Shown here: positions 10,001 to 51,407 of the stretch, in pieces
How positions within the stretch are numbered: the stretch's first letter is position 1
How the letters are laid out: each line of letters begins with the position of its first letter
Assembly: GCA_018821985.1 (NCBI GenBank)
Contig: JAHJKP010000013.1
Location: 1-64,000, forward strand
Length of the DNA: 64,000 nt
Direction: 5' to 3'
From: Pseudomonadota bacterium
GTDB taxonomy: Bacteria; Desulfobacterota; Desulfobulbia; Desulfobulbales; Desulfocapsaceae
Made by a program: the position numbers and the translations under genes
Notes under the pieces: model-generated
Databases searched by the model: none
The model's input: only the letters and a program-made list of their open reading frames with translations
What the model was told of the DNA's origin: nothing

Positions 10001-10779
10001 AACTGAAAAAATCAGCCCTGCTTTTTCTCTGTTTTGTCATAACCTTCTGTATCTTCCTCGGCACGTGTCTGGCGGGAGACCTGGAGAACAGTCAGAATTT
10101 TCTTGAGGCCAACAGGGCCTATGAGGCCGGTGATTTGACCAAGGCCATCCGGATCTACGAGGATCTGGTGGCCCATGCGGGTGTGTCGGCTTCATTGTGC
10201 TATAACCTGGCCAACAGTTATGCCCGCAATGGCCAGACCGGCAAGGCCGTTCTCGAATATGAACGGGCCCTGCTGCTGGCCCCTGGTGATGCAGATATCC
10301 GCACCAACCTGGAACGGCTGCGCCGGGAAAAGGGGCTTTTTCAGAAGGAAATCCCCTGGTGGCAAAAGATGGGCGGACTCCTGGGGCTCAATCAGTGGGC
10401 AGTGCCGGCCGCAATCATCCTGCTGGCCTTGGCCTTGCTGCATCTTGCGACCCTGCGTTTTATGGTTTCACGCAGACTATCTTCTTCCCTGACCGCCGCC
10501 TGCCTGGTGCTGCTTTGTCTCTGTTCCGCCGGGGCGGCAATACAGTACCGGAACTGGCAGCAGGCGGTCATTATTGCCCCGGATGCCCGCCTGTTGATCT
10601 CTCCTTTTGAGGGTGCGGGAAGTACGGGTGTCATTGAAGAAGGCCGCCTGATCCGCATTATCAAACGCCATGACAGCTACGCTCTGATCAATGATGAAAA
10701 CGGTCGTAGCGGCTGGGTTCCAGATTCATCATTTGCATTCATTGCCATGATTATGGCAGATAACAAGAAGCCGTTGTAA
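9997..10779 (+). CDS. batE: BatE, TPR protein with SH3-like C-terminus
   Basis: 260 residues: a signal peptide (about 1-26), TPR repeats (RAYEAGDLTKAIRIYEDL, GKAVLEYERALLLAPGDADI), two membrane helices (about 133-150 and 161-183), and a C-terminal SH3-like domain (about 190-250) with LLISPFEGAGSTGVIEEG and GRSGWVPDSSF. This arrangement is the BatE family. It is last in the Bat operon, which ends about 40 bases before a stem-loop at 10822. Confidence 0.85.
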   Translation: MKLKKSALLFLCFVITFCIFLGTCLAGDLENSQNFLEANRAYEAGDLTKAIRIYEDLVAHAGVSASLCYNLANSYARNGQTGKAVLEYERALLLAPGDADIRTNLERLRREKGLFQKEIPWWQKMGGLLGLNQWAVPAAIILLALALLHLATLRFMVSRRLSSSLTAACLVLLCLCSAGAAIQYRNWQQAVIIAPDARLLISPFEGAGSTGVIEEGRLIRIIKRHDSYALINDENGRSGWVPDSSFAFIAMIMADNKKPL

Positions 10780-10821
10780 CTAAATAACTATATATAACAT
10801 GCTTATATCGTAAGCGGCATA

Positions 10822-10874
10822 AGGGGCCGTAACGAAATAGATTATAATGTAATGGTTGTTTCGTAACGGCCCCT
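10822..10874. terminator. Stem-loop between batE and degP
   Basis: Arms AGGGGCCGTAACGAAA (10822-10837) and TTTCGTAACGGCCCCT (10859-10874) pair over 16 positions with one internal mismatch and a 21-base loop. There is no long T-run. It separates the Bat operon from degP and could end the first transcript or lie in the degP leader. Confidence 0.5.
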
Positions 10875-10903
10875 AATCTTTAATAGAAGGAGGTTTCAAG
10901 ATC

Positions 10904-12373
10904 ATGAAAAGAAAAACACGACTACTGATTGCACCCTTGCCTATTCTGCTTCTTTTAATCTTTATGCTTGGCCTCTCCTGGCTCCCGGCAAACGGCATGG
11001 CGGCCGAGGATGAAAATATCCAGCTTTTGGACAAATCGGCCAAGGCCTTTTCCTCGGTGGTCAAAAAGGCAGAACCGGCAGTTGTGCATGTGCGGGTAGA
11101 AAAGAAAGGAGAGATGGCTCATGGGAATCAGTTTAATCCCTTTGATGATCCATTTTTTCAGCATTTTTTTGGACCATCCTTCAGGCCTCCAGCCACTCCT
11201 CAACAACCTGAGCAATTTAAGACCCAGGCTTCGGGCTCAGGCTTTCTCATCTCTGAGGACGGATATATCCTGACCAATAATCATGTTATTGAGAACGCCG
11301 ACAAGATCACCGTGCGCCTGCAAGGTGAGCAGGAGCTGGAGGGTAAGGTTATCGGTACTGATCCGCAGTCCGATGTGGCCCTGATCAAGATCAGTGACGG
11401 CCGTAAATTCCCCTATCTGCCCCTTGGAGATTCCGATCAACTGGAGGTTGGGGAGTGGGTTATTGCCATCGGCAGTCCTTTTGGTCTGGACAGTACGGTG
11501 ACGGTCGGCGTGGTGAGTGCCAAGGGCAGGAACCGCATGGGCATCAATGAGTATGAAAATTTTATCCAGACCGATGCTGCCATCAATCCCGGCAATTCCG
11601 GGGGACCCCTTCTCAATATCCATGGCGAGGTTATCGGCATCAATACTGCGATCTTTTCCCGCAGCGGCGGTTATATGGGTATCGGTTTTGCCATTCCGGT
11701 CAATATGGCCAAAACGGTGAAGGGGCAGCTGCTGACAAAGGGCAAGGTCACTCGGAGCTGGCTGGGAGTGGCGATTCAGGATATGACCGCTGACCTTGCC
11801 CGCTCCTTTAAGCTGAAAGAGCAAGCTGGTGCTCTGGTAAGCGAGGTGAGTAAGGACTCTCCGGCAGAAAAGGGTGGGATCAAACAGGGCGATCTGATTA
11901 TCAGCTTTGACGGCAAGCCGGTGGTCGATGTGACGGATCTGCGCAACCGGGTGGCCATGACCCCTCCCGGTACCAGGGTTGATCTTGTTCTTATTCGCCA
12001 GGGAAAACAGCAGGAGCTGACGGTCCAGGTTGCGGAGCAGCCATCTGACATGAAAACCCTGTCTGGAGCTCCCGAGCAACAGCAGCTTTTTCAGAAGATG
12101 GGGATGTCGCTTCAGGATCTGACCCCTGAACTGGCCCGTCAGTTTGGTTATGCCAAGGGACAGGGTGTCCTTATTGCCGGAGTGACCCCTGGCAGTCCCG
12201 CGGCGTTGGCCGGTATCCAGGCGGGTAACCTGATCGAAGAGGTCAACCGGCAACCGGTGCAGAGCCTCAAGGAGCTGCAACAGGTGCTGCAGAAAAGCGG
12301 CGACACCCAGGACGTTCTGCTGCTGATCAGCAGCGGTAACCGTAGTTACTATGTGGTCCTGGGAGTGAAATAG
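10904..12373 (+). CDS. degP: DegP/HtrA-type periplasmic serine protease
   Basis: Do-family protease and chaperone of the periplasm, 489 residues, which degrades misfolded envelope proteins. It has a signal peptide (about 1-33), a trypsin-like domain with the complete triad His127 (LTNNHVIEN), Asp157 (QSDVALIKI) and Ser232 (NPGNSGGPLL), and two PDZ domains (about 280-370 and 395-485). A Phe/Pro-rich loop near 77-100 (FNPFDDPFFQHFFG) matches the regulatory LA-loop region of DegP/DegQ. A strong AGGAGG ribosome site lies upstream. It follows the Bat operon and may share an envelope-stress role, but has its own leader. Confidence 0.95.
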   Translation: MKRKTRLLIAPLPILLLLIFMLGLSWLPANGMAAEDENIQLLDKSAKAFSSVVKKAEPAVVHVRVEKKGEMAHGNQFNPFDDPFFQHFFGPSFRPPATPQQPEQFKTQASGSGFLISEDGYILTNNHVIENADKITVRLQGEQELEGKVIGTDPQSDVALIKISDGRKFPYLPLGDSDQLEVGEWVIAIGSPFGLDSTVTVGVVSAKGRNRMGINEYENFIQTDAAINPGNSGGPLLNIHGEVIGINTAIFSRSGGYMGIGFAIPVNMAKTVKGQLLTKGKVTRSWLGVAIQDMTADLARSFKLKEQAGALVSEVSKDSPAEKGGIKQGDLIISFDGKPVVDVTDLRNRVAMTPPGTRVDLVLIRQGKQQELTVQVAEQPSDMKTLSGAPEQQQLFQKMGMSLQDLTPELARQFGYAKGQGVLIAGVTPGSPAALAGIQAGNLIEEVNRQPVQSLKELQQVLQKSGDTQDVLLLISSGNRSYYVVLGVK

Positions 12374-36326: not shown

Positions 36327-36400
36327 TTGACCAATAGTATGGAAGGGGGTATTTTTTTGAAAAAAAATAGCATTGAATCCTATAAGGGAGCGAGGTGGGT

Positions 36401-37030
36401 ATGGCGCAGATAGACTGTAGAGGCTTGGCGTGTCCGGAGCCGGTGTTAAGGGCCAAGGCTGCGCTGGAAGAGGGCGCGGGATCGTTTGAGATTCTTGTGG
36501 ACAATGAGGCCTCAAGGGATAATGTCTTGCGTTTTGGTCACAGCCGGAATTGCCGGGTGGAGTTGACAACGCTTAAAGATGGCTCCTTTCTCCTGAAATT
36601 TCTGGTAGAGAAGAAGGAAGGGGGGGAGTCGTCTGTGCCTTTTGATCAGGATGATTACAGCTGTGCCATTCCAGGCGGAGTCTCAACTGGCTGCAATCTG
36701 GTCTATGTCATTGCCTCCGACTCCATGGGGCGGGGCAGCGATGAGTTGGGATGGGCCTTGTTGCAGACCTATATTGCCACCATCAAGGAGATCTCGCCAC
36801 AACCCAGCCGGATTCTTTTTTATAATGGTGGGGTCAAGCTGGTGGCGACTGCGGGTAAGGCCCTGGAGGCCCTGCAGGCCTTGGAGAAAAAGGGGGTGAA
36901 GATCTTGTCCTGCGGCACCTGCCTTGAGTTTTTCAAACTGGAAACGAAGCTGCAGGTGGGTACGATCACCAATATGTATGAGATTCTGGACAGCATGGCT
37001 AGCGCTGACAAGGTGGTCAGTCCGTTTTGA
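36401..37030 (+). CDS. yedF: YedF-family protein (TusA domain plus DsrE-like domain)
   Basis: About 209 residues in two parts. The N-terminal TusA-like domain (about 1-72) has the IDCRGLACPEPVLRAKAAL signature with the carrier Cys in CPEP. The C-terminal DsrE/DsrF-like domain (about 95-205) has SDSMGRGSDELGWALLQTYI, ILFYNGGVKL and GVKILSCGTCLEFF. This two-domain protein is YedF, linked in other genomes to selenium metabolism. No selD or selA is nearby. The ATG at 36401 is chosen because GAGG is 5 bases upstream; a GTG at 36395 is the alternative. Confidence 0.9.
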   Translation: MAQIDCRGLACPEPVLRAKAALEEGAGSFEILVDNEASRDNVLRFGHSRNCRVELTTLKDGSFLLKFLVEKKEGGESSVPFDQDDYSCAIPGGVSTGCNLVYVIASDSMGRGSDELGWALLQTYIATIKEISPQPSRILFYNGGVKLVATAGKALEALQALEKKGVKILSCGTCLEFFKLETKLQVGTITNMYEILDSMASADKVVSPF

Positions 37031-38204: not shown

Positions 38205-38305
38205 GCGATTTCTTATCACTACAATGACATCTCCCTTAGCAACCAACACAGCCAGGGACGGTGTTTTTTTCACCAACTACGCATGGAAACAATTTTCATT
38301 ACGAT

Positions 38306-40291
38306 ATGTTACCTCTTCTCAGATTGATACAAGGTCGGGCGTTCCTCAGTCTTTTTCTCCTGGTTTCCATATACTCAATTGCCAACTATTTCATTATTAA
38401 GCTGATTGTCTCCCCGCGCCATCTTCACGTTGAACATCACCTGGCGCAACAAGAAGTGGAACGTCTTACTGAAGCACTACTGCGGGAAGAAGAGGCCTTG
38501 GGAACCATCGCCCATGACTGGTCGGCCTGGGATGACACCTATAAATTTGTACAAAACGCAAACCCGGAATATATCTCCTCCAATCTGCAAGATACCACCT
38601 TTGCAAATATCGAATTAAATCTGCTGTACATCTTTCGCCTCGACGGCTCGCGGGTATGGAGCCGACTGCTCAACTTTGAAAGAGAAGATGATCTGGGCCT
38701 CCCTGTATACCCGGTAACCGGTCTGGCCAGTAGTCATCCCCTGTTGCGCCATTCCGGAGTGAACAGTTCAATCAGCGGACTCCTCAAAACAGCTCACGGC
38801 CCACTATTAATCGTATCCCACCCCATCATCACCAGTGAGAATGCCGGGCCCATAATCGGAACTCTGATGCTTGGTCGCTTGCTCACCAAGGAATTCTTGG
38901 CAAAGTTAAAAAAACAAACCAAGGTCAAATTCAGACTCCTTGATCTCGATGAACAAGAGCTCCTTGCCAAAATTCCTGCCGATATATCTTCACTTGGCTC
39001 GGAGACACCCTTTGTCTTTTATGATACAGAAGATGGAATCACTGTATACAGCCTCCTTCGCGATTATCTGGGAAGCCCCCAGTGGCTTCTCGAGGTGCAG
39101 GCCGATCGCCCGATCACTGAACAATCCAGAGAGATCCTCCGTTATGTCCTGTTCTCAAACATTGGTATAGGCCTTATTACCCTCCTTCTTCTCCTCATCT
39201 TTTACAGAAATCAGCTTAGGACTGCGACCTCGACATTCCGAAGCCTTATCGATCAAGCCTTACCGTCTCGGACAAAGGCGCAACCAGAAAGTCCACTGTT
39301 GATAGATTTCAACACCGATGAATTCTCCAGATTAAGCGATGACCTCCGTTCCATGATCGCCGACTTTGAACAAACCAGCGAACAACAAAAACATATCATT
39401 AGTGAATATACGACTTCACGCCGTCAACTGAATGTTCAGATGGTCAAAGAGATCAAGGAGAGGCTGCAGATTGAAGAAGATCTGTACAAGACGCAGAAGA
39501 ATCTTGAAAAACAGATCGAAGAACGAACCAGAGAGCTCCGTCAGACTAATACCGTACTGCAGAACGAAATCGTGACCCGCAAAGAGAAGGAAGACGAATT
39601 GATAAACCACCGGAAGCGACTTCGCGCCCTCTCGTCGGAACTCATGCAAATAGAAGACAAGGAACGACGTCAGCTTGCCACCGACCTTCATGACCAGGTA
39701 GGGCAGTCCCTTTCGGTTGTAAAAATGTATGTGGATGGACTCATCGCCTCCACATCGGACGATGCCAGCCAGGAGAGGCTTCAGCTCATAGGAGGTATTG
39801 TTGAGCAGACAGTGCAGGATGTCCGGACACTCACCTTTGAACTCAGTCCGCCCATTTTGTATGAGCTTGGTCTTAAGGCCGCACTTGAATGGCTCTCTGA
39901 AGATTTTCAAAAAAAATATTCTCTCAGGATTAAGTCCGCATGTGATGCGTGTCCCAAATGTACCACTCCCGCCTTCCTGGCCCTTATTTACCGCACAATT
40001 CGTGAATTACTGATCAATGTCGTCCGTCATGCCCATGCTAATAGTGCTGGGGTAGAAGTTCGATGTACAGGCAAAGGCGTCCGTATAACCGTAATGGATA
40101 ACGGTTGTGGTATGGAAGACTGGGATCAAAAAAACGGAGAAAGCACAAACGGAGGCTTTGGTCTGTTCAGCGTCCGTGAGCGGGTAATCAACATCGGGGG
40201 CACAGTGGTGATTGATTCACAAAAAGGTCAAGGAACAACCATAACCATAACAATTCCAATTAAAGAGGCCTGCGCGGAATCCGGCAGTTAA
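38306..40291 (+). CDS. CHASE4 sensor histidine kinase (NarL-type partner)
   Basis: About 661 residues from the ATG at 38306; a GTG at 38261 is also possible. Two membrane helices (about 12-35 and near 285-305) bracket an extracellular CHASE4 domain with HDWSAWDDTYKFVQ and a ligand-pocket-like LNLLYIFRLDGSRVWSR. A linker and coiled coil (about 350-455) lead to a HisKA_3 domain with the phospho-acceptor in RRQLATDLHDQVGQSL, then an ATPase domain with DNGCGM and GGFGLFSVRERV. The response-regulator gene starts 6 bases later. It senses a periplasmic signal and probably controls the cytochrome genes that follow. Confidence 0.9.
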   Translation: MLPLLRLIQGRAFLSLFLLVSIYSIANYFIIKLIVSPRHLHVEHHLAQQEVERLTEALLREEEALGTIAHDWSAWDDTYKFVQNANPEYISSNLQDTTFANIELNLLYIFRLDGSRVWSRLLNFEREDDLGLPVYPVTGLASSHPLLRHSGVNSSISGLLKTAHGPLLIVSHPIITSENAGPIIGTLMLGRLLTKEFLAKLKKQTKVKFRLLDLDEQELLAKIPADISSLGSETPFVFYDTEDGITVYSLLRDYLGSPQWLLEVQADRPITEQSREILRYVLFSNIGIGLITLLLLLIFYRNQLRTATSTFRSLIDQALPSRTKAQPESPLLIDFNTDEFSRLSDDLRSMIADFEQTSEQQKHIISEYTTSRRQLNVQMVKEIKERLQIEEDLYKTQKNLEKQIEERTRELRQTNTVLQNEIVTRKEKEDELINHRKRLRALSSELMQIEDKERRQLATDLHDQVGQSLSVVKMYVDGLIASTSDDASQERLQLIGGIVEQTVQDVRTLTFELSPPILYELGLKAALEWLSEDFQKKYSLRIKSACDACPKCTTPAFLALIYRTIRELLINVVRHAHANSAGVEVRCTGKGVRITVMDNGCGMEDWDQKNGESTNGGFGLFSVRERVINIGGTVVIDSQKGQGTTITITIPIKEACAESGS

Positions 40292-40296
40292 CGAAG

Positions 40297-40938
40297 ATGA
40301 TACTCAAAATTATTGTGGTTGATGACCATAAAATTGTCAGGGACGGACTCTGTTCACTTATCGACGGACTCTCCGGTTATACCATCGTCGGCCGGGCGGA
40401 AAACGGCAGGCAGGCCATCGAGGTGGCGCGTCGGGAAAAACCTGATATCATCATCATGGATGTGAGCATGCCGGAGATGAACGGTATTGATGCCACCAGC
40501 TCGATCATGGAAGAGATGCCATCTTGTAAGATCATTGTCCTGTCCATGCATTCTGATAAACGCTTCATTACCGGAGCTCTCCAGGCCGGAGCCGCAGGCT
40601 TCTTGCTCAAGGAGTGCGCTTTCCAGGAACTCAATCAGGCCCTTGACGCAGTCCGTAGCGGCCAGACCTATCTCAGCCCCAAAATTGCCGGAACGGTTGT
40701 CCACGATTACCGACGTCGCCTGCTTTCCGAGGCCAAGGAAGAAAATCTTACAACCAAAGAACGTGAAGTGCTGCAGCTGATTGCCGAGGGCCGTTCGACC
40801 AAAGAAATTGCCGACAGACTCTTTGTCAGCGTCAAGGCCATTGAAGGACGGCGACGGCGGCTCATGGAAAAACTGCAGATTGACACTGTAGCCGGACTGG
40901 TCAAATATGCCATCCGGGAAGGGCTGACAGATTTGTAA
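40297..40938 (+). CDS. NarL/FixJ-family response regulator
   Basis: 213 residues. The receiver has the acidic pair VVDDHK, acceptor Asp55 (IIIMDVSMPEMNG), Ser/Thr switch (VLSMHSD) and Lys105 (GFLLKECAF). The LuxR-type helix-turn-helix is near 148-205 (LTTKEREVLQLIAEGRSTKE, then SVKAIEGRRRRLMEKL). It is co-transcribed with the CHASE4 kinase. The 452-base gap to the first cytochrome gene is the natural place for its binding sites. Confidence 0.93.
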   Translation: MILKIIVVDDHKIVRDGLCSLIDGLSGYTIVGRAENGRQAIEVARREKPDIIIMDVSMPEMNGIDATSSIMEEMPSCKIIVLSMHSDKRFITGALQAGAAGFLLKECAFQELNQALDAVRSGQTYLSPKIAGTVVHDYRRRLLSEAKEENLTTKEREVLQLIAEGRSTKEIADRLFVSVKAIEGRRRRLMEKLQIDTVAGLVKYAIREGLTDL

Positions 40939-41390
40939 CCCCAATAGTTTTGCCTGCAGAGTGCCCTCAAAAATAAACTGTATGCAATCAAACAGAGAAG
41001 GTGGGGACTCCGGGAAGTGTCGAATTTCGCCTAGTTCCTTGTCGTTCTACTGATCGAAAGTGCCTGTCCGATAGTCGACCTTCCCTTGCAAAGAGATTAA
41101 TGGATTCCCGGCAACGACATTGATCTTTTGGTAGTAATTTCCCACGGTATCGAGAAAAAACCATCTTCTCCACCATTCATTTCCCTCTCTCCCAGACCCC
41201 TGGCCTCCCCCTCTACCCCTCATCAGCACATCACCAAAAAAACACAACAAGGTATTTCGAGGCCTACAAGTAGGGAAACTCCCCTTTTCAACTATCCTAC
41301 ATGGTGATACCATCAGATTATCGTACAAAGATTCCTCTTTTCATGATGATAACCATATTAATTAAATAGGAAAATTGACTCAGGGGGACA
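40939..41390. promoter_or_regulatory. Upstream control region of the cytochrome operon
   Basis: A 452-base gene-free stretch. A 13-bp perfect palindrome ATGGTGATACCAT is at 41301-41313, about 80 bases before the first cytochrome start, and is a candidate regulator site. The segment 41160-41240 is pyrimidine-rich on the plus strand. I could not identify a confident promoter; a sigma-54 GG/GC pair is not evident. Confidence 0.4.
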
Positions 41391-42311
41391 ATGAAAAAAA
41401 CAGTATGTATCTCCTTGTTCCTCCTCTCTGCCAGCAGTCTAGCACTGGTAACAAATGCCAGTCAACAGGAGCTGCTTTTTATCAACCCCGATGTGACAAC
41501 AGAAACCAATATCCACTTCAACGAACACTACTGCACCGAGTGTCATCTGCAGCGACCAAGCAAGGGTGATGGCGCTCAGTTAAGATATGACAACTATACA
41601 CAGACCTGCAGGTGTCATGGATATACTCCTGACACTTACACCCATCCTGTTGATATAACACTTTCCGCAGAGGTAAAGGCCACTATCCCGGCCGAGTTTC
41701 CCCTCACAGATGACAAAATCACCTGTTACACCTGTCACAATATGGTGTTGCAATGCGAACCGAAATACAAATTTAAAAGCTACAATAAGGCATTTTTACG
41801 AACAGACTCCTCCCTCGGACGTACCTTCCTTTGCTTTCAATGCCACAAAGAAGATCAGTACAAGATGTTGGACCCCCACAAGCAACTGGACGCCTCGGGA
41901 ACGATAAATCCAGAGTCATGCCTCTATTGCCACGAAACCAAGCCAGACGAGCAACACGCAACACTTTCATCCCGGAAAATCGGAGAAGATACTGTCCATC
42001 TTGTCGGTGATCTTGAAGTACTCTGCCTGCGATGTCATAATAACAAAGCTGGAAACCACCCCCTCAACAAAAACCATCGCGTCAAACCATCGGAAAAGGT
42101 GTCCTCAAGAATGGCCTGGTCAGAGACAAATATCTGGATCGTGCTGCCGCTGAACGACGAGGGGAAAATTACCTGCATTACCTGCCACAACCCCCATGAA
42201 CGGGGGGTTATTCCCACTGACAAAGCAGCCTCTGCCGGTGCAAGCGACAGAGGCCGGCTGAGAAAAGCATGGGGAGGGGGCAGTATTTGTGTGGCATGCC
42301 ATGACATGTAA
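41391..42311 (+). CDS. Periplasmic multihaem cytochrome c (7-8 haems)
   Basis: 306 residues with a signal peptide (about 1-24, ending LVTNASQ). Seven CxxCH haem sites are visible: CTECH, CYTCH, CFQCH, CLYCH, CLRCH, CITCH and CVACH, the last at the C-terminus. An eighth, shortened CRCH (QTCRCHGY) may be a non-standard haem site or a lost one. Several extra His residues (HPVDITL, NHPLNKNH) could be distal ligands. It is first in the cytochrome operon. I do not recognise a named family; it is probably a periplasmic electron carrier or oxidoreductase. Confidence 0.88.
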   Translation: MKKTVCISLFLLSASSLALVTNASQQELLFINPDVTTETNIHFNEHYCTECHLQRPSKGDGAQLRYDNYTQTCRCHGYTPDTYTHPVDITLSAEVKATIPAEFPLTDDKITCYTCHNMVLQCEPKYKFKSYNKAFLRTDSSLGRTFLCFQCHKEDQYKMLDPHKQLDASGTINPESCLYCHETKPDEQHATLSSRKIGEDTVHLVGDLEVLCLRCHNNKAGNHPLNKNHRVKPSEKVSSRMAWSETNIWIVLPLNDEGKITCITCHNPHERGVIPTDKAASAGASDRGRLRKAWGGGSICVACHDM

Positions 42312-42409
42312 AAAGTGAACAATCCCTTTGCGCCACTGCGCAACCCATACAGTACAGTTGTTTACAGAATGTTGCATCCTATGAAACTGTTCCAAAAAAA
42401 GGAGAGGAG

Positions 42410-43471
42410 ATGAGCTTGAAATCACGTTCTGCACCATTTGGTTACATTGGGGTCTTTGTACTGCTTACCATCTACTTCATGCCCGCAAGCGTGCTTGGGG
42501 CAGATGTCGGCAACTGTCTGTTATGTCACAAGTACCCGGGATTAAGCAGGGTCGACGAGAATGCACAGATGCGGCTTCTCTATGTCAATGAAGACATTTT
42601 TAGCAAGAGCGTCCATGGCAAGGTAAAATGTGAGGGATGCCATACAGATATAACCAAAATCCCCCATGATCCAGCCAAACCGGTCGATTGTCTTGCGCTT
42701 TGCCATATCATAGAACCGACTTCGGAACAGAAGTTCACCCACAAGAGTGTTGCAACCTCTTTGGAAGACAGTGTTCACAGCAAGACGGACAAGGACGGCA
42801 AGGAAAAACCTTTCAGCGAGGATATGCCCACTTGCAAGGACTGTCATGACAATCCAATGTTCAGACCCCTTTCTTTTGTTAAAATAGTCAGACCCGGTGT
42901 CGCTGAGGATGCTCTGGGGCGCTGTCGTGTCTGTCACACACAAGAAGAATTTATCAACAGGTTTTACAATCACATCACCACCAGGCTGCACAAGAGCAGA
43001 AGTCCTCTTAATATTGCAGAGTCGTGCGCTCGATGCCATGATGACCCGGAACTGGTTGCCAGGCATAATCTTGCCACTACAGCAGGAGGTTCCTATGGAC
43101 AGACATTTCACGGGAAGGCAGCCAACCTTCTCGACGAATCGGTTCCAGATTGCCTGGACTGCCATGTGCCCAAGGGGAAATCTGTACATCAGATGTATAA
43201 AAACAAAGATCCCCGTGCGACAACCAATAAAGAGAACAGAGGAAAAATCTGTAATTCCGTGGACTGCCATCCGGGAGCCTCTGCACAATTTGCTAATTAC
43301 AAGGTCCATGCCGAATTCGATAAGAAAAGCAACCCTGTAATATATTGGTTTACTACCTTTTTCATCATTCTCACCGGTGGCACCCTGCTGCCTCTGATGG
43401 CGATCCTGTTTCTTGACCTGCTTCGCCGCCTGTTTCCCAATGCATCTTTTAGTCGGAGGAAAGAGAAATAA
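42410..43471 (+). CDS. Membrane-anchored multihaem cytochrome c (up to 8 haems)
   Basis: 353 residues: signal peptide (about 1-30), a periplasmic haem domain, and a C-terminal membrane helix (about 318-342, WFTTFFIILTGGTLLPLMA) with a basic cytoplasmic tail. Canonical sites are CLLCH, CEGCH, CKDCH, CRVCH, CARCH and CLDCH. Two more have wider spacing: CLALCH (CX3CH) and CNSVDCH (CX4CH). The conserved SVHGKVKCEGCH pattern is typical of quinol-linked multihaem cytochromes. A strong GGAGAGGAG site precedes it. It shares one base with the cytochrome b gene, which implies a membrane complex. Confidence 0.9.
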   Translation: MSLKSRSAPFGYIGVFVLLTIYFMPASVLGADVGNCLLCHKYPGLSRVDENAQMRLLYVNEDIFSKSVHGKVKCEGCHTDITKIPHDPAKPVDCLALCHIIEPTSEQKFTHKSVATSLEDSVHSKTDKDGKEKPFSEDMPTCKDCHDNPMFRPLSFVKIVRPGVAEDALGRCRVCHTQEEFINRFYNHITTRLHKSRSPLNIAESCARCHDDPELVARHNLATTAGGSYGQTFHGKAANLLDESVPDCLDCHVPKGKSVHQMYKNKDPRATTNKENRGKICNSVDCHPGASAQFANYKVHAEFDKKSNPVIYWFTTFFIILTGGTLLPLMAILFLDLLRRLFPNASFSRRKEK

Positions 43472-44373
43472 TGAAACGATATCCAGCCATAAAAATACAA
43501 GACGGAAAGAAATATTTTTTCAGATTCGATCTGGACCAAAGGATCCAGCACATCATTCTGGCGGCGACGGTCATTATTCTGGTGCTGACAGGGATGCCTC
43601 TCAAGTTCAGCGATACAAGCTGGGCCCCGTATCTCTATACTATCTTCGGTGGAAGTAAGATGGCGCCGACAATACATAAAATAACCGGTGCCATTATGCT
43701 CATCCTCTTTGTTTACCATGTCATCCGTGTTGTCGGCCAAATCCTGACTAAACAGATTTTACCCCTTAAAAAAGAGAAAAAGATGAGTGTTGGCCGAGTC
43801 TCCATGATACTGCTTAAGCAGCCTATGATCCCCAACCTGAAGGATGCCAAGGACATCGTAGGGCTGATGAAATATCTCCTCTATTTTACCACTGTACGAC
43901 CTGATGGAGATGAATTCACCTGGAAGGAAAAATTTGATTACTGGGCACCGTTCTGGGGTATGTTTGTCATCGGTCTAACCGGCCTCGTTATCTGGAATAA
44001 GGTACTTGCCACCCAGATCATACCAGGCGATCTCATCAATCTCTGCCTGATCGCCCACAGCGACGAGGCGCTGCTGGCCGCCCTCTTTCTCTTCATATGG
44101 CACTGGTACAATGTCCATTTCTCCACATCGGTCTTCCCCATGGGCACAGTCTTTTTGACTGGTTATCTCCCTGAGGAGTTGATGGTTGAAGAACACTATG
44201 AACATTATGTCAGGGTAATGACAAGAGAGGGGCTGGAGGATGAAATCCTCCCACCCCATGGTGGACACAAGCCCTTCTGTGGTAAACCGTTAGCTGACGA
44301 AGACAGTCCGTCAACCACTACAGCCGCCGAACAGCCCAATGATACCATGCAGCCGGGAGGGCTCAGCTCATGA
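43471..44373 (+). CDS. Cytochrome b561-like membrane subunit
   Basis: 300 residues with four or five membrane helices (about 27-45, 66-88, 160-180 and 200-222). His residues suited to haem b are in RIQHIILAATVII, PTIHKITGAIM, FVYHVIR, AHSDEALLAALFLFIWHWYN and VHFSTSVFP. This is the di-haem cytochrome b design of formate dehydrogenase/thiosulfate reductase gamma subunits, the usual quinol-oxidising partner of multihaem cytochromes. The C-terminus is a soluble Thr/Pro-rich tail. Gene overlaps on both sides point to a stoichiometric complex with its neighbours. Confidence 0.87.
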   Translation: MKRYPAIKIQDGKKYFFRFDLDQRIQHIILAATVIILVLTGMPLKFSDTSWAPYLYTIFGGSKMAPTIHKITGAIMLILFVYHVIRVVGQILTKQILPLKKEKKMSVGRVSMILLKQPMIPNLKDAKDIVGLMKYLLYFTTVRPDGDEFTWKEKFDYWAPFWGMFVIGLTGLVIWNKVLATQIIPGDLINLCLIAHSDEALLAALFLFIWHWYNVHFSTSVFPMGTVFLTGYLPEELMVEEHYEHYVRVMTREGLEDEILPPHGGHKPFCGKPLADEDSPSTTTAAEQPNDTMQPGGLSS

Positions 44374-45293
44374 AATGTTTTTTTACCAAATTATACGTCC
44401 TTGCCTTTATGGGGCTGGTTGTTTTTTTTAGTGTGCTCATCTGGAAATTGACCTTTGCCCATCTTATCCATGAATACCATGCAAGAAAAGGAGATGTATC
44501 CGTCCAGCATACCGAAGAAGCAAGGCAGAAAAAGGAAAAAGGAAAACAGACATTTGATAAGATGATCCTTGAAAGCGAGGATCGGGTTAAACACTATCTC
44601 GGCTACCGTGTGCTGGAAGAGCAGCGAATAAAGGGCCATTTCCACCATATCGGTGTTGATATAGGTCCGGACAACAGATCCTATTGCCGATCCTGCCACG
44701 GTGATATGCCGCACGACTCAGTTAAGGATATTCGTGCCTTTTTGAATATGCATGCCTTCTTTGTCGCCTGTCAGACCTGCCATGTCAAACTCGGAGAAGA
44801 TGAAAAGACAAATGTCTATAAATGGTATGACCGCAAAACCGGGGAAATTGTTGCCAGCCCGGTTAATGGGTCTGCGCCAGGAACCTATCAGGCAAAAATC
44901 ATCCCTTTTGTTCGTGAGAACGGCAAACTCGTCCGCATTGACAGTGAAGAAATGATGCAATTTGCTACTGACTACAAGGAAAATGAAAAGGTCCTGAGCG
45001 AAGGCCAAAAATCCAAGGCCAAGAAAGTAATCCATAAGATTATCAGTAAGATCCCGGTGAAATGTGAAGAATGCCATACAAAGAACAACCCTATCCTTCC
45101 CCTTGCAGAGCTGGGCTATCCCAAGACGCGGATTGACTCAATCACCAGCACAGAGGTGGTAGGAATGATAAAAAACTATACCGAATTTCATATGCCGAAG
45201 ATGTTGAGCCCCGGCGAGAAATCGGTCACGCCGCAACTGCAGGCGGAACCACTGCTGAAACAGCAGTCGGAAGCACCGCCGAAAGAACACTAA
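44370..45293 (+). CDS. Membrane-anchored tri-haem cytochrome c
   Basis: 307 residues with one N-terminal membrane anchor (about 7-27, LYVLAFMGLVVFFSVLIWKL). A periplasmic domain carries three CxxCH sites: CRSCH (near 109), CQTCH (near 137) and CEECH (near 238). The long spacer before the third site, and SEDRVKHYLGYRVLEEQR, are not typical of NapC/NirT. The end is a Pro/Gln-rich tail. It overlaps the cytochrome b gene by 4 bases and probably shuttles electrons from it to soluble cytochromes. Confidence 0.85.
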   Translation: MKCFFTKLYVLAFMGLVVFFSVLIWKLTFAHLIHEYHARKGDVSVQHTEEARQKKEKGKQTFDKMILESEDRVKHYLGYRVLEEQRIKGHFHHIGVDIGPDNRSYCRSCHGDMPHDSVKDIRAFLNMHAFFVACQTCHVKLGEDEKTNVYKWYDRKTGEIVASPVNGSAPGTYQAKIIPFVRENGKLVRIDSEEMMQFATDYKENEKVLSEGQKSKAKKVIHKIISKIPVKCEECHTKNNPILPLAELGYPKTRIDSITSTEVVGMIKNYTEFHMPKMLSPGEKSVTPQLQAEPLLKQQSEAPPKEH

Positions 45294-45306
45294 CCGTCTA
45301 GGATAA

Positions 45307-46290
45307 ATGGATAAAGATATTATGTTTGTATGGCATGCACCCCTCTTGGGGTGCAGCAGATGGCAACGGAGCATATCCTTCGTTGCCATCTGCCTCTGGC
45401 TTATTGCCTCTACCTCGACTGCCCATGGAGTCGAACTGACCATGGCAAGACATCTCTTTGATATAAAGGATACCTTTAACCAGCCAAGTGATGTGGCCGT
45501 TGCCAAAAATGGTACCATCTATGTGGTTGACGGGGTTAAGGGCAGGGTCCAGGCATTTTCTTCATCCGGAAGCTATCTTTTTACCATTGGACGCCCGGGA
45601 ACCGGGCCCGGCGAATTTGCCTTCCCTCTGGGTATGGATATTGACGAATCAGGCAGGGTCTATGTTGCCGATTCCAGAAACCACAGGGTCCAGATATTCA
45701 CAGCCAAGGGGGATTTCATCTCTGAGATCCCGGTTCCGGATAATAACGGTAACAAGGCAGACCCAACGGATGTGGCAGTGGATGATTCCGGCAAGTGGTT
45801 CTTTGTGGCAGACAACAATAATCACCGTATTCTCAAATTTGATATTGGTTCAAAAAAGCTTGTCAACAGCTATGGAAAACCAGGGGCTGAGAAGTGGGAG
45901 TTTCGTTATCCCTTTCTCATGCATCTGTATCATAACAAGGATCTCTATATCGTCGATGTGATCAACACCAGGGTACAGGTGGTGAACACAGATGGAAAAT
46001 TTGTTACCTTAATCGGGGGCTGGGGCGTGGAAAAGGGACAATTTTTCAGGCCCAAAGGAGTCACTGTTGATAAAAACGGTCTCGCCTATGTCAGCGATAG
46101 TTACATGGGAGTGGTTCAGCTTTTTAATATTACAGGAACATTTAATTCTGTCATTGGTGATCCTGTAAGCGGTGGGGTGAGAAAATTCACCACCCCGGTG
46201 GGACTCTTTGTTGACGATTCAATGCGCCTCTATGTTGTGGAAATGCTTCCAGGGCGGCTCAGTGTTTTTAGCCTGGACAAGGCGCAATAA
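45307..46290 (+). CDS. Exported NHL-repeat beta-propeller protein
   Basis: 327 residues. The signal peptide is near 20-41 (ISFVAICLWLIASTSTAHG). Six NHL-type blades follow, each with a pattern like FNQPSDVAVAKNGTIYVVDG, FAFPLGMDIDESGRVYVADS and RPKGVTVDKNGLAYVSDS. NHL propellers are often encoded with multihaem cytochromes and may hold a cytochrome complex together; a catalytic role is not evident. It starts 13 bases after the tri-haem gene with AGGA upstream. Two strong hairpins lie inside the first 30 codons, which is unusual. Confidence 0.88.
   Translation: MDKDIMFVWHAPLLGCSRWQRSISFVAICLWLIASTSTAHGVELTMARHLFDIKDTFNQPSDVAVAKNGTIYVVDGVKGRVQAFSSSGSYLFTIGRPGTGPGEFAFPLGMDIDESGRVYVADSRNHRVQIFTAKGDFISEIPVPDNNGNKADPTDVAVDDSGKWFFVADNNNHRILKFDIGSKKLVNSYGKPGAEKWEFRYPFLMHLYHNKDLYIVDVINTRVQVVNTDGKFVTLIGGWGVEKGQFFRPKGVTVDKNGLAYVSDSYMGVVQLFNITGTFNSVIGDPVSGGVRKFTTPVGLFVDDSMRLYVVEMLPGRLSVFSLDKAQ
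45337..45393. other. Two strong hairpins within the start of the NHL gene
   Basis: GCACCCC/GGGGTGC (45337-45354, 4-base loop) is followed by a perfect 13-bp stem, GCAGATGGCAACG / CGTTGCCATCTGC (45356-45393, 12-base loop). They lie 30-87 bases inside the coding region and could pause or attenuate the operon. Confidence 0.6.
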
Positions 46291-46317
46291 CAGTGCATCG
46301 CCGACAAATAGTTTGCT

Positions 46318-48546
46318 ATGAATAGATCCTCAGTCTGCATTCTTTCCCTCATCTTCAGCACCATACTCTTGTACCATACGTCCACTCTTGCCGATCAGGC
46401 ACCGCCCCGCAACCCGAATTCGGCCAAAGAGTGTGCGATCTGTCACTATCGATGGATCGACACCTTCTTCATCGATGGCAAGGGAACTGACCTGGTTCCC
46501 TATCAAGCGACAAGGGTTGTCGCCGAACCTGAAATGTGTTTTTCCTGCCATGACGGCAGTGTGGTTGACTCAAGAGGAAAGGTCTATAACGACCATCGTC
46601 ATCCAATCAATAAACCTCCGCCCCCGGGTATGGAAATCCCGGCCATCTTCCCTCTGGACGATAAGGGAAACATGCAGTGTTTCACCTGCCATACCGCCCA
46701 CGGTGTATCCAGCGAGATGGGGATAGAGAGGGCGGTCTTTATCCGCGCTTCAAATAATAACTCTTCCATGTGCATGATGTGTCACAAGGGCAAGGACGGT
46801 GGCCCAGCTGCCGGTAACCATCCCATTGGCACAATAAAACGGACAATCCCCGAGAAGATGCTTGGCCGTGGCAGTGTCGAGGGAACTGACAAGAAGCAAC
46901 TCATCTGCCAGACCTGTCATACCGTCCATGGCTCACCGTATGACAATTTCCTCGTGGACAACAACCGCGATTCGGCCCAACTCTGCCTCGACTGTCATGG
47001 AGAGAAGGGTGGCCTGATGAACACCGGACATGATCTGCGGCGCACAGCAGCTGGTGCAAAAAACAGCAAGGGACAGACCCCGGAACAGTCAGGGGTCTGC
47101 GGCGCTTGTCACCTGGTGCACGGGGCAAAGAAAGCGGCTCTCTGGGCAAGAGATCTTCCCGCCAATAGCAAAAACATGAGCCAGGACATCTGTATAAGTT
47201 GTCATAACAGGCAGGGACTGGCCCCTGAAAAGCTTCTCAATGGGTACGCACATCCCGTCAATATCTCACTCAAAGACAAGGGGATGAAGCCTGATTTACC
47301 AGTCTATGATCTTAAGGGCAAACGGGTCCCCTTCCAGTCAAAGGAGGCCCTCTTCACCTGCCTCACCTGCCATGACCCGCATCAGGGAGGAACAGGCGGA
47401 CAGGCGAAGATGACGCCTCCCCGTTCCAGTTTTCTTCGGGTAGAGGGTGGTCAGCCGGAGAGGCTGTGCAGACAGTGCCATGTCCAACAGGCCCGCATTG
47501 CCGGGAGCGATCATGATCTGCGGAGCACCGGACCCACAACAAAAAATGATAAGGGCCAGTCGCCGCTGGAGTCTGACGTGTGCGGCGTCTGCCATCTGGT
47601 GCATGGAGCGCAGACAGAGAATTTGTGGGCCAGAAAGGTCCCTGGCAAGAGCGTCTATACGGCCCAGGAACTCTGCCTCACCTGTCATAAGAGCAAAGGG
47701 GAGGCCGCTAAAAAGGTGATCGGGGGGCATTCCCATCCCCTTGATATTGATCCTGCCAAAAAGGGGATCAGCACCAAGCTTCCCCTCTATAACAAGCAGG
47801 GGAAAAAGGCTGGTAACGGAGTGATCGCCTGTCTGACCTGCCACGATCCCCATCAATGGAATCCTCAAAAGCCAGGAGATCATGGCGGCAATACAGAAGG
47901 CAACGCCGAAAATAGTTTTCTCCGTCTTGAGGTTGCACCAAGGCCGGTGTTGTGTGGTAATTGCCATGGGACTAAGGCATATGTGGAAAAGACAGACCAC
48001 GATCTTAGCATAACCGCTCCGACGGCAAAAAACATCCTGGGCCAGACGCCAGCAGAGTCCGGAGTCTGCGGGGTCTGCCATATCATCCATAATGGGAAAA
48101 ACAAGGTGCGCCTCTGGGGTCGTGACTACGGCATCGGTAAAGGCGTTATGGACAGGATGTGTAACAGCTGTCATAGTGAGGCAGGGTCGGGAGGCAGTAA
48201 GGTGCCAAAGGTATCCACTCACCCGGAAAAACAACTGATTGCCAATCCGGGTAGAAACATCAAGGGCAAGCCAAACTACTTCCCATTGTTTAACAATGCC
48301 ACCGGGGCTTACGTAACCGTTGGTGATATAGCCTGTGCCTCATGCCATGATGTACATCAATGGGACCCGAAGAAGGCATTAAAGGGCCCAGGCACAAATT
48401 CCGAAGGCAGGGTTGTCAACAGCTTTTTACGGATGCAGACCTACAACATGATATGCAAGGATTGTCATGGCCTCGATTCGCTGTTCCGATTTAAATACTA
48501 CCATGACAGCAAACAAAGAAAATCCCAACCCGCAACTATAAAATAG
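46318..48546 (+). CDS. 18-haem periplasmic or secreted cytochrome c
   Basis: 742 residues with a signal peptide (about 1-25, ending STLADQ). I count 18 CxxCH sites, from CAICH (about 39) to CKDCH near the C-terminus, with no variant motifs. Three modules repeat about every 161 residues: a DHDLR/GHDLR start, KGQTPEQSGVCGACHLVHG-type core, then LWAR. They lie near 47030, 47510 and 47996. Many extra His residues can act as axial ligands. There is no membrane helix or lipobox. This is probably the terminal carrier or storage cytochrome of the operon. The electron acceptor is unknown. Confidence 0.92.
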   Translation: MNRSSVCILSLIFSTILLYHTSTLADQAPPRNPNSAKECAICHYRWIDTFFIDGKGTDLVPYQATRVVAEPEMCFSCHDGSVVDSRGKVYNDHRHPINKPPPPGMEIPAIFPLDDKGNMQCFTCHTAHGVSSEMGIERAVFIRASNNNSSMCMMCHKGKDGGPAAGNHPIGTIKRTIPEKMLGRGSVEGTDKKQLICQTCHTVHGSPYDNFLVDNNRDSAQLCLDCHGEKGGLMNTGHDLRRTAAGAKNSKGQTPEQSGVCGACHLVHGAKKAALWARDLPANSKNMSQDICISCHNRQGLAPEKLLNGYAHPVNISLKDKGMKPDLPVYDLKGKRVPFQSKEALFTCLTCHDPHQGGTGGQAKMTPPRSSFLRVEGGQPERLCRQCHVQQARIAGSDHDLRSTGPTTKNDKGQSPLESDVCGVCHLVHGAQTENLWARKVPGKSVYTAQELCLTCHKSKGEAAKKVIGGHSHPLDIDPAKKGISTKLPLYNKQGKKAGNGVIACLTCHDPHQWNPQKPGDHGGNTEGNAENSFLRLEVAPRPVLCGNCHGTKAYVEKTDHDLSITAPTAKNILGQTPAESGVCGVCHIIHNGKNKVRLWGRDYGIGKGVMDRMCNSCHSEAGSGGSKVPKVSTHPEKQLIANPGRNIKGKPNYFPLFNNATGAYVTVGDIACASCHDVHQWDPKKALKGPGTNSEGRVVNSFLRMQTYNMICKDCHGLDSLFRFKYYHDSKQRKSQPATIK

Positions 48547-50543: not shown

Positions 50544-51407
50544 CTATTTGCAGTTATGAAATAATGATTTGATCCAGTTCCTGCAAACAGTGATCCTCTT
50601 TTCTCTGGCCAGAATATGATGAATCCGTTGAGAGTTTTGCTGGAAGGTTAATCGCTGTCCGGGATGGATTGCCTCGCAGAAGAGGATGTGAAACCCCTGT
50701 GCCGTCTGGATGATTGGACTGATCTCGCCTGGACCAAGTTGGAAAAGGGCATGGTCCAGGGTGGCGCAGAGATCTCCGGGACTGATCCGTCCCAAATCTC
50801 CGCCGTCGATAGCTGTGATGCAGTCAGAATGAAGCTGGGCCTCAAGGCTGAAGCTCTGCGGATCACGCTGCAGTCGGGAGTGAAGATCTCGTATTCGCCG
50901 CCGGAGCGAATCTTTCGGCAGCTGCGAGGGAGTGTTCTCAGTGCTGATAAAGATGTGACGGGTGCTGCGTTGTTCCGGAAAACAAAATGAATCCGGATGG
51001 TTGTTGTAATAATCTTCTAGTTCTTGATGGCATACGGGCTCGGCATGAAAGGCAACTCTGGCCAAAATGGTCTCAACTTTCAGGTCATTGTGCAGGGCGG
51101 TGAGGTAGTCAGTGAGTTGCAGGTTGTTTCTTTGCAGGTGGTGAAAGAAATTTTCATCACCGCCATGTTCTGCCTTCAGGCGGTCGAAGGTTGCTTGAAT
51201 CGTATTGTTCGGAATTATTACCCCGCAGGCTGCCTCAGACAGAAGGATCTTTTCCTGCAGGGAAATCTCGTGGCAGGCCTGCAGGTATGCCTCTGCATAC
51301 TCTTCCATTGTCAGCTCCACGACCTTTTTTTCAAAGACCTGCAGGGCAAACTTCATGAGCGTAAAGGTCAGAGTCGGTTCAATTTGTCTGGGGATTCTGG
51401 ATTGCAT
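50544..51407 (-). CDS. NifM-like peptidyl-prolyl cis-trans isomerase
   Basis: 287 residues without a signal peptide. The N-terminal helical half (LSEAACGVIIPNNTIQATFD, LHNDLKVETILARVAFHAEP) matches NifM, the cytoplasmic helper of nitrogenase iron-protein maturation. The C-terminal parvulin domain (about 140-260) has STRHIFIST, SDCITAIDGGDLGRIS and PIIQTAQGFHILFCEAI. The ATG at 51407 has AGGAAGAGG upstream. No nif structural genes are in the window, and the partner here is a FapA gene. It could be a true NifM or a paralogue with another client. Confidence 0.78.
   Translation of the reverse strand: MQSRIPRQIEPTLTFTLMKFALQVFEKKVVELTMEEYAEAYLQACHEISLQEKILLSEAACGVIIPNNTIQATFDRLKAEHGGDENFFHHLQRNNLQLTDYLTALHNDLKVETILARVAFHAEPVCHQELEDYYNNHPDSFCFPEQRSTRHIFISTENTPSQLPKDSLRRRIRDLHSRLQRDPQSFSLEAQLHSDCITAIDGGDLGRISPGDLCATLDHALFQLGPGEISPIIQTAQGFHILFCEAIHPGQRLTFQQNSQRIHHILAREKRITVCRNWIKSLFHNCK

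Follow-up and report, generated by a model that had tools for sequence, protein, structure and literature searches.

The window, a 64,000-nt stretch of contig JAHJKP010000013.1 (assembly GCA_018821985.1, Desulfocapsaceae), carries at 38306-48546 a sensor kinase, a response regulator and a block of six genes rich in c-type haem sites, which we refer to as the module. Our preferred reading, to which we give a probability of about 0.6, is that the module encodes a menaquinol:cytochrome c oxidoreductase of the inner membrane, controlled by the two-component pair and supplied with a periplasmic wire of its own; oxidoreductase and wire would together make up the initial half of a chain for extracellular electron transfer. 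We found a conserved gene order, natural gene fusions, conserved haem and ligand residues, a promoter duplicated in front of an outer-membrane conduit, and co-occurrence of module and conduit in the genus, all of which, like the gene content, are read directly from the genomes. An earlier note, made from the DNA of the window alone, had listed the eight genes of the module, and we confirmed both the genes and their coordinates:

38306..40291, + strand: CHASE4 sensor histidine kinase (HisKA_3, HATPase_c; Pfam CHASE4 E 4.9e-39)
40297..40938, + strand: NarL/FixJ-type response regulator (Response_reg and GerE)
41391..42311, + strand: cytA, secreted heptahaem c-type cytochrome (7 CXXCH and an invariant CXCH at 73-76)
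42410..43471, + strand: cytB, cytochrome anchored via a C-terminal helix (6 CXXCH, CX3CH at 94-99, CX4CH at 281-287)
43471..44373, + strand: cytb, FdnI-type di-haem cytochrome b with a predicted quinol site (PF01292; 1kqf_C profile match)
44370..45293, + strand: cytC, trihaem cytochrome with an N-terminal anchor (3 CXXCH)
45307..46290, + strand: secreted six-bladed NHL propeller (PF01436, E 7e-29)
46318..48546, + strand: cytD, secreted 18-haem cytochrome (two haems and four related tetrahaem repeats)

The six genes of the block contain exactly the 34 canonical CXXCH sites counted before (7, 6, 0, 3, 0 and 18 in gene order), and alignment of homologues allows the non-canonical sites to be graded. 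The estimate of up to eight haems for cytB can be sharpened, as its CX3CH and CX4CH motifs are invariant in all 43 rows; of its eight sites the first is kept in 42 of the 43 rows and the other seven in every row, and the protein is probably octahaem. For cytA, given before as a protein of seven or eight haems, seven CXXCH sites stand, and the eighth, a CXCH that is invariant in 13 of 13 rows, is only possible. Because both non-canonical sites of cytB are invariant, the module likely holds 36 haems c, possibly 37. Pfam recognizes CHASE4, HisKA_3 and HATPase_c in the kinase, Response_reg and GerE in the regulator, a cytochrome b561 domain (PF01292) in cytb, and NHL repeats. The kinase and regulator adjoin with a gap of 5 bases, and their HisKA_3 and Response_reg-GerE domains form a NarL/FixJ-type two-component pair; the kinase start at ATG 38306 suits most orthologues better than does the alternative GTG at 38261, which would lengthen the protein. 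No catalytic family scored above cutoff in Pfam or NCBIfam among the module proteins. Pfam also gave no match to an NrfD-type or iron-sulfur subunit in the eight genes, and the five NrfD matches of the genome lie on other contigs than the module.

The block is conserved well beyond the window. A cytb scan kept 80 loci, and our neighborhood counts use the 45 with cytb of at least 54% identity, a set that omits L065 (where an overlapping antisense open reading frame displaces the cytb frame), copies below 54%, and loci L001-L024, which came from a separate genome search. The cytC gene lies directly 3' of cytb in all 45 loci, with an overlap of 1 or 4 bases in 39 of them, across phyla. The cytB gene lies directly 5' in 42, and the remaining three begin at a contig end. 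The NHL gene comes next after cytC in 32 loci, and cytD next after NHL in 28. Of the 13 loci lacking NHL at that place, eight continue into a second b-c pair, three stop at a contig end (L048, L055, L059), one has NHL after a spurious antisense frame (L046), and one has cytA instead (L054). A search for conserved gene order, proposed in the earlier note, thus finds that the block and its order recur across phyla, beyond chance: carriers belong to Desulfobacterota and Nitrospirota (Thermodesulfovibrionia), and include one Deferribacteres metagenome-assembled genome (MAG) and Verrucomicrobia records. In eleven loci, most of them from Nitrospirota, the cytB-cytb-cytC-NHL-cytD block is present as two divergent tandem copies (L035, L036, L038, L041, L047, L050, L052, L057, L066, L067, L068), and the cytochrome b of the second copy falls far off in the tree. 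The close form of the module is uncommon, since only four genomes (G000, G006, G009, G021) of an even 395-genome phylum sample have cytb at 63% identity or more. The closest named cytb records, from Desulfocapsa sp. N3_15 and Desulfocapsaceae/Desulfobulbaceae MAGs, belong to the same genus, and the NarL-type regulator is 92-97% identical upstream of the module in L025-L029.

The earlier note had taken the short overlaps between the middle three genes (-1 base for cytB/cytb and -4 for cytb/cytC) as a sign of a membrane complex, and natural fusions lend this weight alongside the overlaps kept in relatives. A single 921-aa frame in L147 joins cytB, b and cytC. L148 has a cytB-b fusion of at least 696 aa that is possibly another triple fusion, as a contig end cuts the frame. 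Fusions of b and cytC occur in L008, L143-L146 and L149, and in a paralogue in L018 and L022-L024. Because relatives fuse two or all three of the subunits, cytB, cytb and cytC very probably form one complex. Of the solved structures, only FdnI (1kqf_C) matched the cytb profile at E <= 0.1, with E 1.5e-12. Four invariant histidines of cytb (H27, H69, H196, H211) line up with H18, H57, H155 and H169 of FdnI, which we take to be the haem ligands of that protein. With a PF01292 score above cutoff and the four ligand-position histidines, cytb belongs to the FdnI/Ni-hydrogenase family of four-helix cytochromes b, which supports the quinol oxidation proposed earlier for this subunit in the form of a predicted quinol site. 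The cytochrome b part of the fused relative also superimposes on FdnI (Foldseek E 1.1e-4; VIA Z 14.8 with the next row at 8.9, root-mean-square deviation 3.1 over 207 of 216 residues), only residues 309-620 of the triple-fusion model testing well in the VIA comparison.

The L147 model itself (predicted local distance difference test, pLDDT, 70.1; predicted template modelling score, pTM, 0.59) is relied on solely for the positions of the helices and the fold of the cytochrome b part. It shows six predicted long helices after the N-terminal (signal) helix, at 314-346; 390-414, 430-470, 520-544 and 555-585; and 635-669, and these positions would place both haem c domains of the fusion in the periplasm. 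AlphaFold gave a middling model of cytB alone (pLDDT 72.8, pTM 0.58) with no PDB match, the best having E 5.9. We dropped a fold assignment for cytB, its sequence matches to solved cytochromes being at motif level only. Beyond the complex, the four tetrahaem repeats of cytD are clearly related (pairwise scores 66-361 against shuffle maxima of 40-52), and the protein may cross much of the periplasm. In the 28 homologue rows listed, the haem count is 18 or 20 with four exceptions: one row has 19, and three shorter proteins have 10, 10 and 14. The cytD of L061 and L062 has 24. Separately, a 2090-aa cytochrome with 49 haems lies within the same 20-kb stretch as a cytB-cytb-cytC block in L200 (G294:C33).

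A candidate route across the outer membrane lies elsewhere in the window's genome:

C36:295870-302744: conduit operon with a 4-haem cytochrome, NHL lipoprotein, 5-haem lipoprotein, 690-aa barrel, NHL protein and 11-haem cytochrome

The operon runs off the contig end, and C35 seems to hold the remainder of the 11-haem gene; G009 (L192) has the conduit genes in identical order on one contig. The conduit is physically joined to the module in relatives. It begins 0.4-0.9 kb after cytD in L025, L027 and L029, with the 4-haem cytochrome, NHL lipoprotein, 5-haem lipoprotein and a barrel of 686-690 aa (639 in L025, where the locus end cuts it). In L051 and L058 the corresponding genes sit upstream of cytB. 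L194 has, in one run, the 5-haem, barrel, NHL and 11-haem genes, a 268-aa gene, cytB, a fused b-cytC, NHL, cytD and cytA. Within the genus, barrel orthologues (67-71% identity) are found in G002, G006, G009, G012 and G013, precisely the five remaining carriers of the module (cytb 89-92%), and the kinase sensor has orthologues of 76-80% in exactly these five, its matches elsewhere among the 17 genus genomes reaching at most 29%. Kinase, operator (see below), module and conduit barrel co-occur in six of the 17 genus members and are present as orthologues in none of the other 11, among which we found three remote barrels at 22-27% and one partial cytb match at 29%. Two further clusters in the same collection are of note in their own right. 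G000:C53:37679-43280 (L141) is a second cytochrome/NHL cluster with a 5-haem protein, an 846-aa NHL-like protein and an 11-haem cytochrome, its 5-haem protein being 81% identical to one after the module in L026. G000:C6:131685-134719 (L140) encodes a 9-haem cytochrome and, after it, a secreted protein of 667 aa; the two may be a further porin-cytochrome pair.

Module and conduit of the window's genome also share a promoter element, with the following features in front of cytA:

41236..41409, + strand: cytA leader/promoter element, 174 bases, including the ribosome-binding site and first codons
41254..41273, + strand: predicted operator ATTTCGARGCCTACAARTAG, 20 bases, from a pattern search
41263-41274: palindrome CCTACAAGTAGG within the predicted operator region

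The leader is duplicated 5' of the conduit at C36:295629-295800; the two agree at 144 of 170 aligned positions (score 183, the best of 200 shuffles scoring 28; BLAST 81%). The element is also present upstream of cytA in G002, G009, G012 and G013, that of G006 falling below the threshold of the search, and about 73 bases of it precede a PilZ-like gene (PF07238 E 0.032, below cutoff) in G000, G002, G012 and G013. Searching with ATTTCGARGCCTACAARTAG at up to two mismatches gave 11 sites. Every one lies in the six module genomes, the other 11 genomes having none, and a reversed-pattern control gave one. The pattern was derived from these genomes' own sites, so its presence in the six is partly by construction, and the informative parts are its absence elsewhere and the site count in the window's genome: three operator-like sites only, each before a module or conduit gene or the PilZ-like gene. 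The regulator may bind the palindrome, and the PilZ-like gene is a predicted third member of the regulon. At that site (G000:C40:7192-8328, L220) the PilZ-like gene behind the operator element is followed by a conserved 91-aa protein outside any Pfam family. A generic promoter/terminator scan was uninformative, and Rfam and tRNA scans of the window gave no matches.

The copy before the conduit could instead be a passive rearrangement scar with no regulatory role. It has lost the cytA start codon and carries two mismatches in the 20-base operator, and the module-adjacent conduits of L025, L027 and L029 have no promoter copy. We consider this improbable given the 144 identical positions, the retention of the copy directly upstream of the conduit operon, and the restriction of operator-like sites to three places in the genome, each before a gene of the set or the PilZ-like gene.

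We propose that menaquinol would be oxidised at the FdnI-type cytochrome b, from where electrons would pass through the two haems b to the anchored octahaem cytB and trihaem cytC, and on to cytA and the modular 18-haem cytD. They would exit via the porin-cytochrome conduit at C36, the regulator turning on module and conduit jointly from copies of one promoter element, and the likely acceptor would be an oxide of Fe(III) or Mn(IV), or else some other sink outside the cell. The assembly of the complex, the direction of flow, the role of each cytochrome, the binding of the regulator and the acceptor are here inferred from sequence. The earlier note had offered sulfur, metal or interspecies electron transfer; since relatives place module and conduit side by side, and since the two share a promoter and occur together, we narrow this to extracellular electron transfer for the genus, direction and acceptor being predictions. 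The findings suggest that the host is able to respire solids such as rust outside the cell.

Among the carriers we could identify, one has published physiology. We identified G040 as Desulfurivibrio alkaliphilus by an exact match of both published DA_402 primers, spanning 84 bases. A b-cytC fusion is its sole cytb-family match (E <= 0.001). Next to the fusion are cytB, cytA-like and 20-haem cytD-like genes, and this cluster lies downstream of a 9-haem and a 7-haem gene flanking a 440-aa protein that has no Pfam match. The genes of interest are at about 2.447-2.459 Mb of G040. D. alkaliphilus is reported to grow on sulfide and ferrihydrite and to induce 13 of its 46 multihaem genes, including that of a membrane-associated CbcL homologue (PMC12545173). 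We infer that this homologue may be the cytb-family gene of G040.

Several observations weigh against the preferred reading. The 690-aa barrel has no Pfam or NCBIfam match at E <= 0.01, and its presumptive assignment as a porin draws on its size, C-terminal aromatic residue and neighbors. A barrel search over the 80 loci placed it beside the module, within flanks of at most 10 kb, in five of the 45 loci (L025, L027, L029, L051, L058) and in no Nitrospirota. G021 holds the module (67%) and has no barrel match at E <= 0.001, and the conduit also occurs in stretches lacking the module (L195-L199). Common descent, possibly as one lineage, may explain why the six genus members share the set, and several of the 17 genus genomes are incomplete (55-84%), so 6 of 6 versus 0 of 11 does not amount to 17 independent trials. 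Upstream elements shared between module and conduit in L025, L027 and L029 (and L026) are not clearly above shuffles, and the shared-promoter claim is therefore confined to the window's genome. To these may be added a proposal about direction, taken up below.

The main alternative is a chain that runs inward: a partner cell, Fe(0) or an electrode would supply electrons that enter via the conduit, reduce menaquinone and drive sulfate reduction. FdnI itself passes electrons towards menaquinone, and dsrA is present in the host genome. For Seep-SRB2, a syntrophic sulfate reducer, it has been proposed that CbcBA runs in reverse (PMC10553843). Against this, D. alkaliphilus, the only identified carrier with published physiology, respires ferrihydrite outward (PMC12545173), and none of the features found marks the host as syntrophic; we regard inward flow as unlikely. 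Still less likely is that quinol electrons are used by cytA or cytD to reduce tetrathionate, nitrite or a sulfur species as a soluble acceptor in the periplasm, and that the conduit link is incidental: a weak match of cytC to octahaem tetrathionate reductase TIGR04315 (36 bits, cutoff 375), weak HAO-like matches of cytB and the 40 of 45 module loci with no barrel of the conduit family nearby favor it, but no catalytic family scored above cutoff and the conduit is tied to the module in the genus by adjacency, promoter and co-occurrence.

The module, predicted to work in the manner of CbcL or CbcBA, is a conserved, unnamed variant of such systems and not a new principle, and its genetic link to an outer-membrane conduit is unusually clear within its own genus. 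We found no publication naming this gene order in the literature searched, most subscription papers lying outside its coverage, in keeping with the earlier note, which did not recognise the order among named complexes. Its statement that this is not a Cbc complex holds for gene content, but the cytochrome b falls in the same broad family as CbcL-type proteins. CbcL of Geobacter sulfurreducens likewise combines a di-haem cytochrome b with periplasmic haems c to carry electrons from the quinone pool to Fe(III), and has six membrane helices in all (PMC9129911), as the L147 fusion has six predicted long helices after its signal helix. In CbcL a single polypeptide carries nine haems c together with the cytochrome b, whereas the module has three polypeptides with 8 + 3 haems c plus b, and NHL and 18-haem partners. 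The window's cytb falls in a 55-row clade (99/90), apart from a 28-row clade that includes 9-haem and b fusions and is labelled CbcL by architecture, contains no Geobacter CbcL row, and sits in a tree with flagged long branches. Geobacter CbcEDCBA (Cbc5, CbcBA), also a menaquinol:cytochrome c oxidoreductase with a cytochrome b and several multihaem cytochromes c, comprises three cytochromes c, one b and the membrane protein CbcE, with NHL not listed in a figure legend of PMC11434368; compared by description, the module differs in having four cytochromes c, b and NHL, and no further membrane protein.

More distant systems share single elements. The NrfD-based complexes (Qrc, Tmc, Hmc, Dsr, Cbc3/Cbc6) have an NrfD or iron-sulfur subunit, which the module lacks. 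In groups 2-3 of the Methanoperedenaceae menaquinone:cytochrome c oxidoreductases, a cytochrome b adjoins a six-haem cytochrome (PMC7327174). We found this arrangement, the cytB-cytb pair alone with a six-haem cytB homologue, in 27 archaeal loci, which differ from the module in that no cytC, NHL or cytD homologue is labelled adjacent and cytB is only 22-29% identical. A Seep-SRB operon resembles the module in its 16- and 26-haem cytochromes and six-bladed propeller, but, as described in PMC5539420, it is a four-gene core with a peptidyl-prolyl isomerase, absent from our operon, and without a cytochrome b. The C36 conduit resembles OetABI and MtrCAB in combining a barrel with inner and outer cytochromes; it differs in the NHL lipoproteins flanking the barrel, and its barrel gave no Pfam or NCBIfam match at E <= 0.01 to the MtrB/PioB family found in MtrCAB.

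Other genes of the window are noted for completeness. A TusA-DsrE two-domain protein (YedF-like; 36395-37030, + strand) lies between LysR-like and CBS-domain genes slightly upstream of the module. A PpiC-type peptidyl-prolyl isomerase (50544-51407, - strand) is on the opposite strand two genes past cytD and is linked to the module by proximity only; enzymes of this kind go along with large cytochromes in the Seep-SRB operons. At 6018-12373 (+ strand) a VWA-TPR protein, a BatD-like protein and a trypsin-PDZ (DegP-type) protease lie close together in an ordinary-looking group.

The route of electrons from quinol to the outside in sulfur bacteria other than Geobacter is largely unknown. What the locus adds is a probable quinol:cytochrome complex, as yet unnamed and conserved across several phyla, whose natural fusions hint at its stoichiometry and topology, and a compact predicted regulon of three promoters that ties it to a specific outer-membrane conduit. 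It also makes direct respiration of iron or manganese oxides by Desulfocapsaceae open to testing, a route reported in 2025 for D. alkaliphilus (PMC12545173). We suggest, tentatively and with the odds against it, that Desulfocapsa-type sulfur bacteria possess a dedicated regulon (kinase, regulator and 20-base operator) building a complete wire from the inner membrane to the outside. This wire would consist of a b-c quinol complex of three subunits, a cytochrome of tetrahaem repeats that spans the periplasm, and a porin conduit whose barrel family is undescribed. These bacteria classically need Fe(III)/Mn(IV) oxides. If the suggestion is true, that need would be partly respiratory, coupling sulfide or sulfur oxidation to extracellular iron reduction, and not solely a matter of chemical sulfide scavenging.

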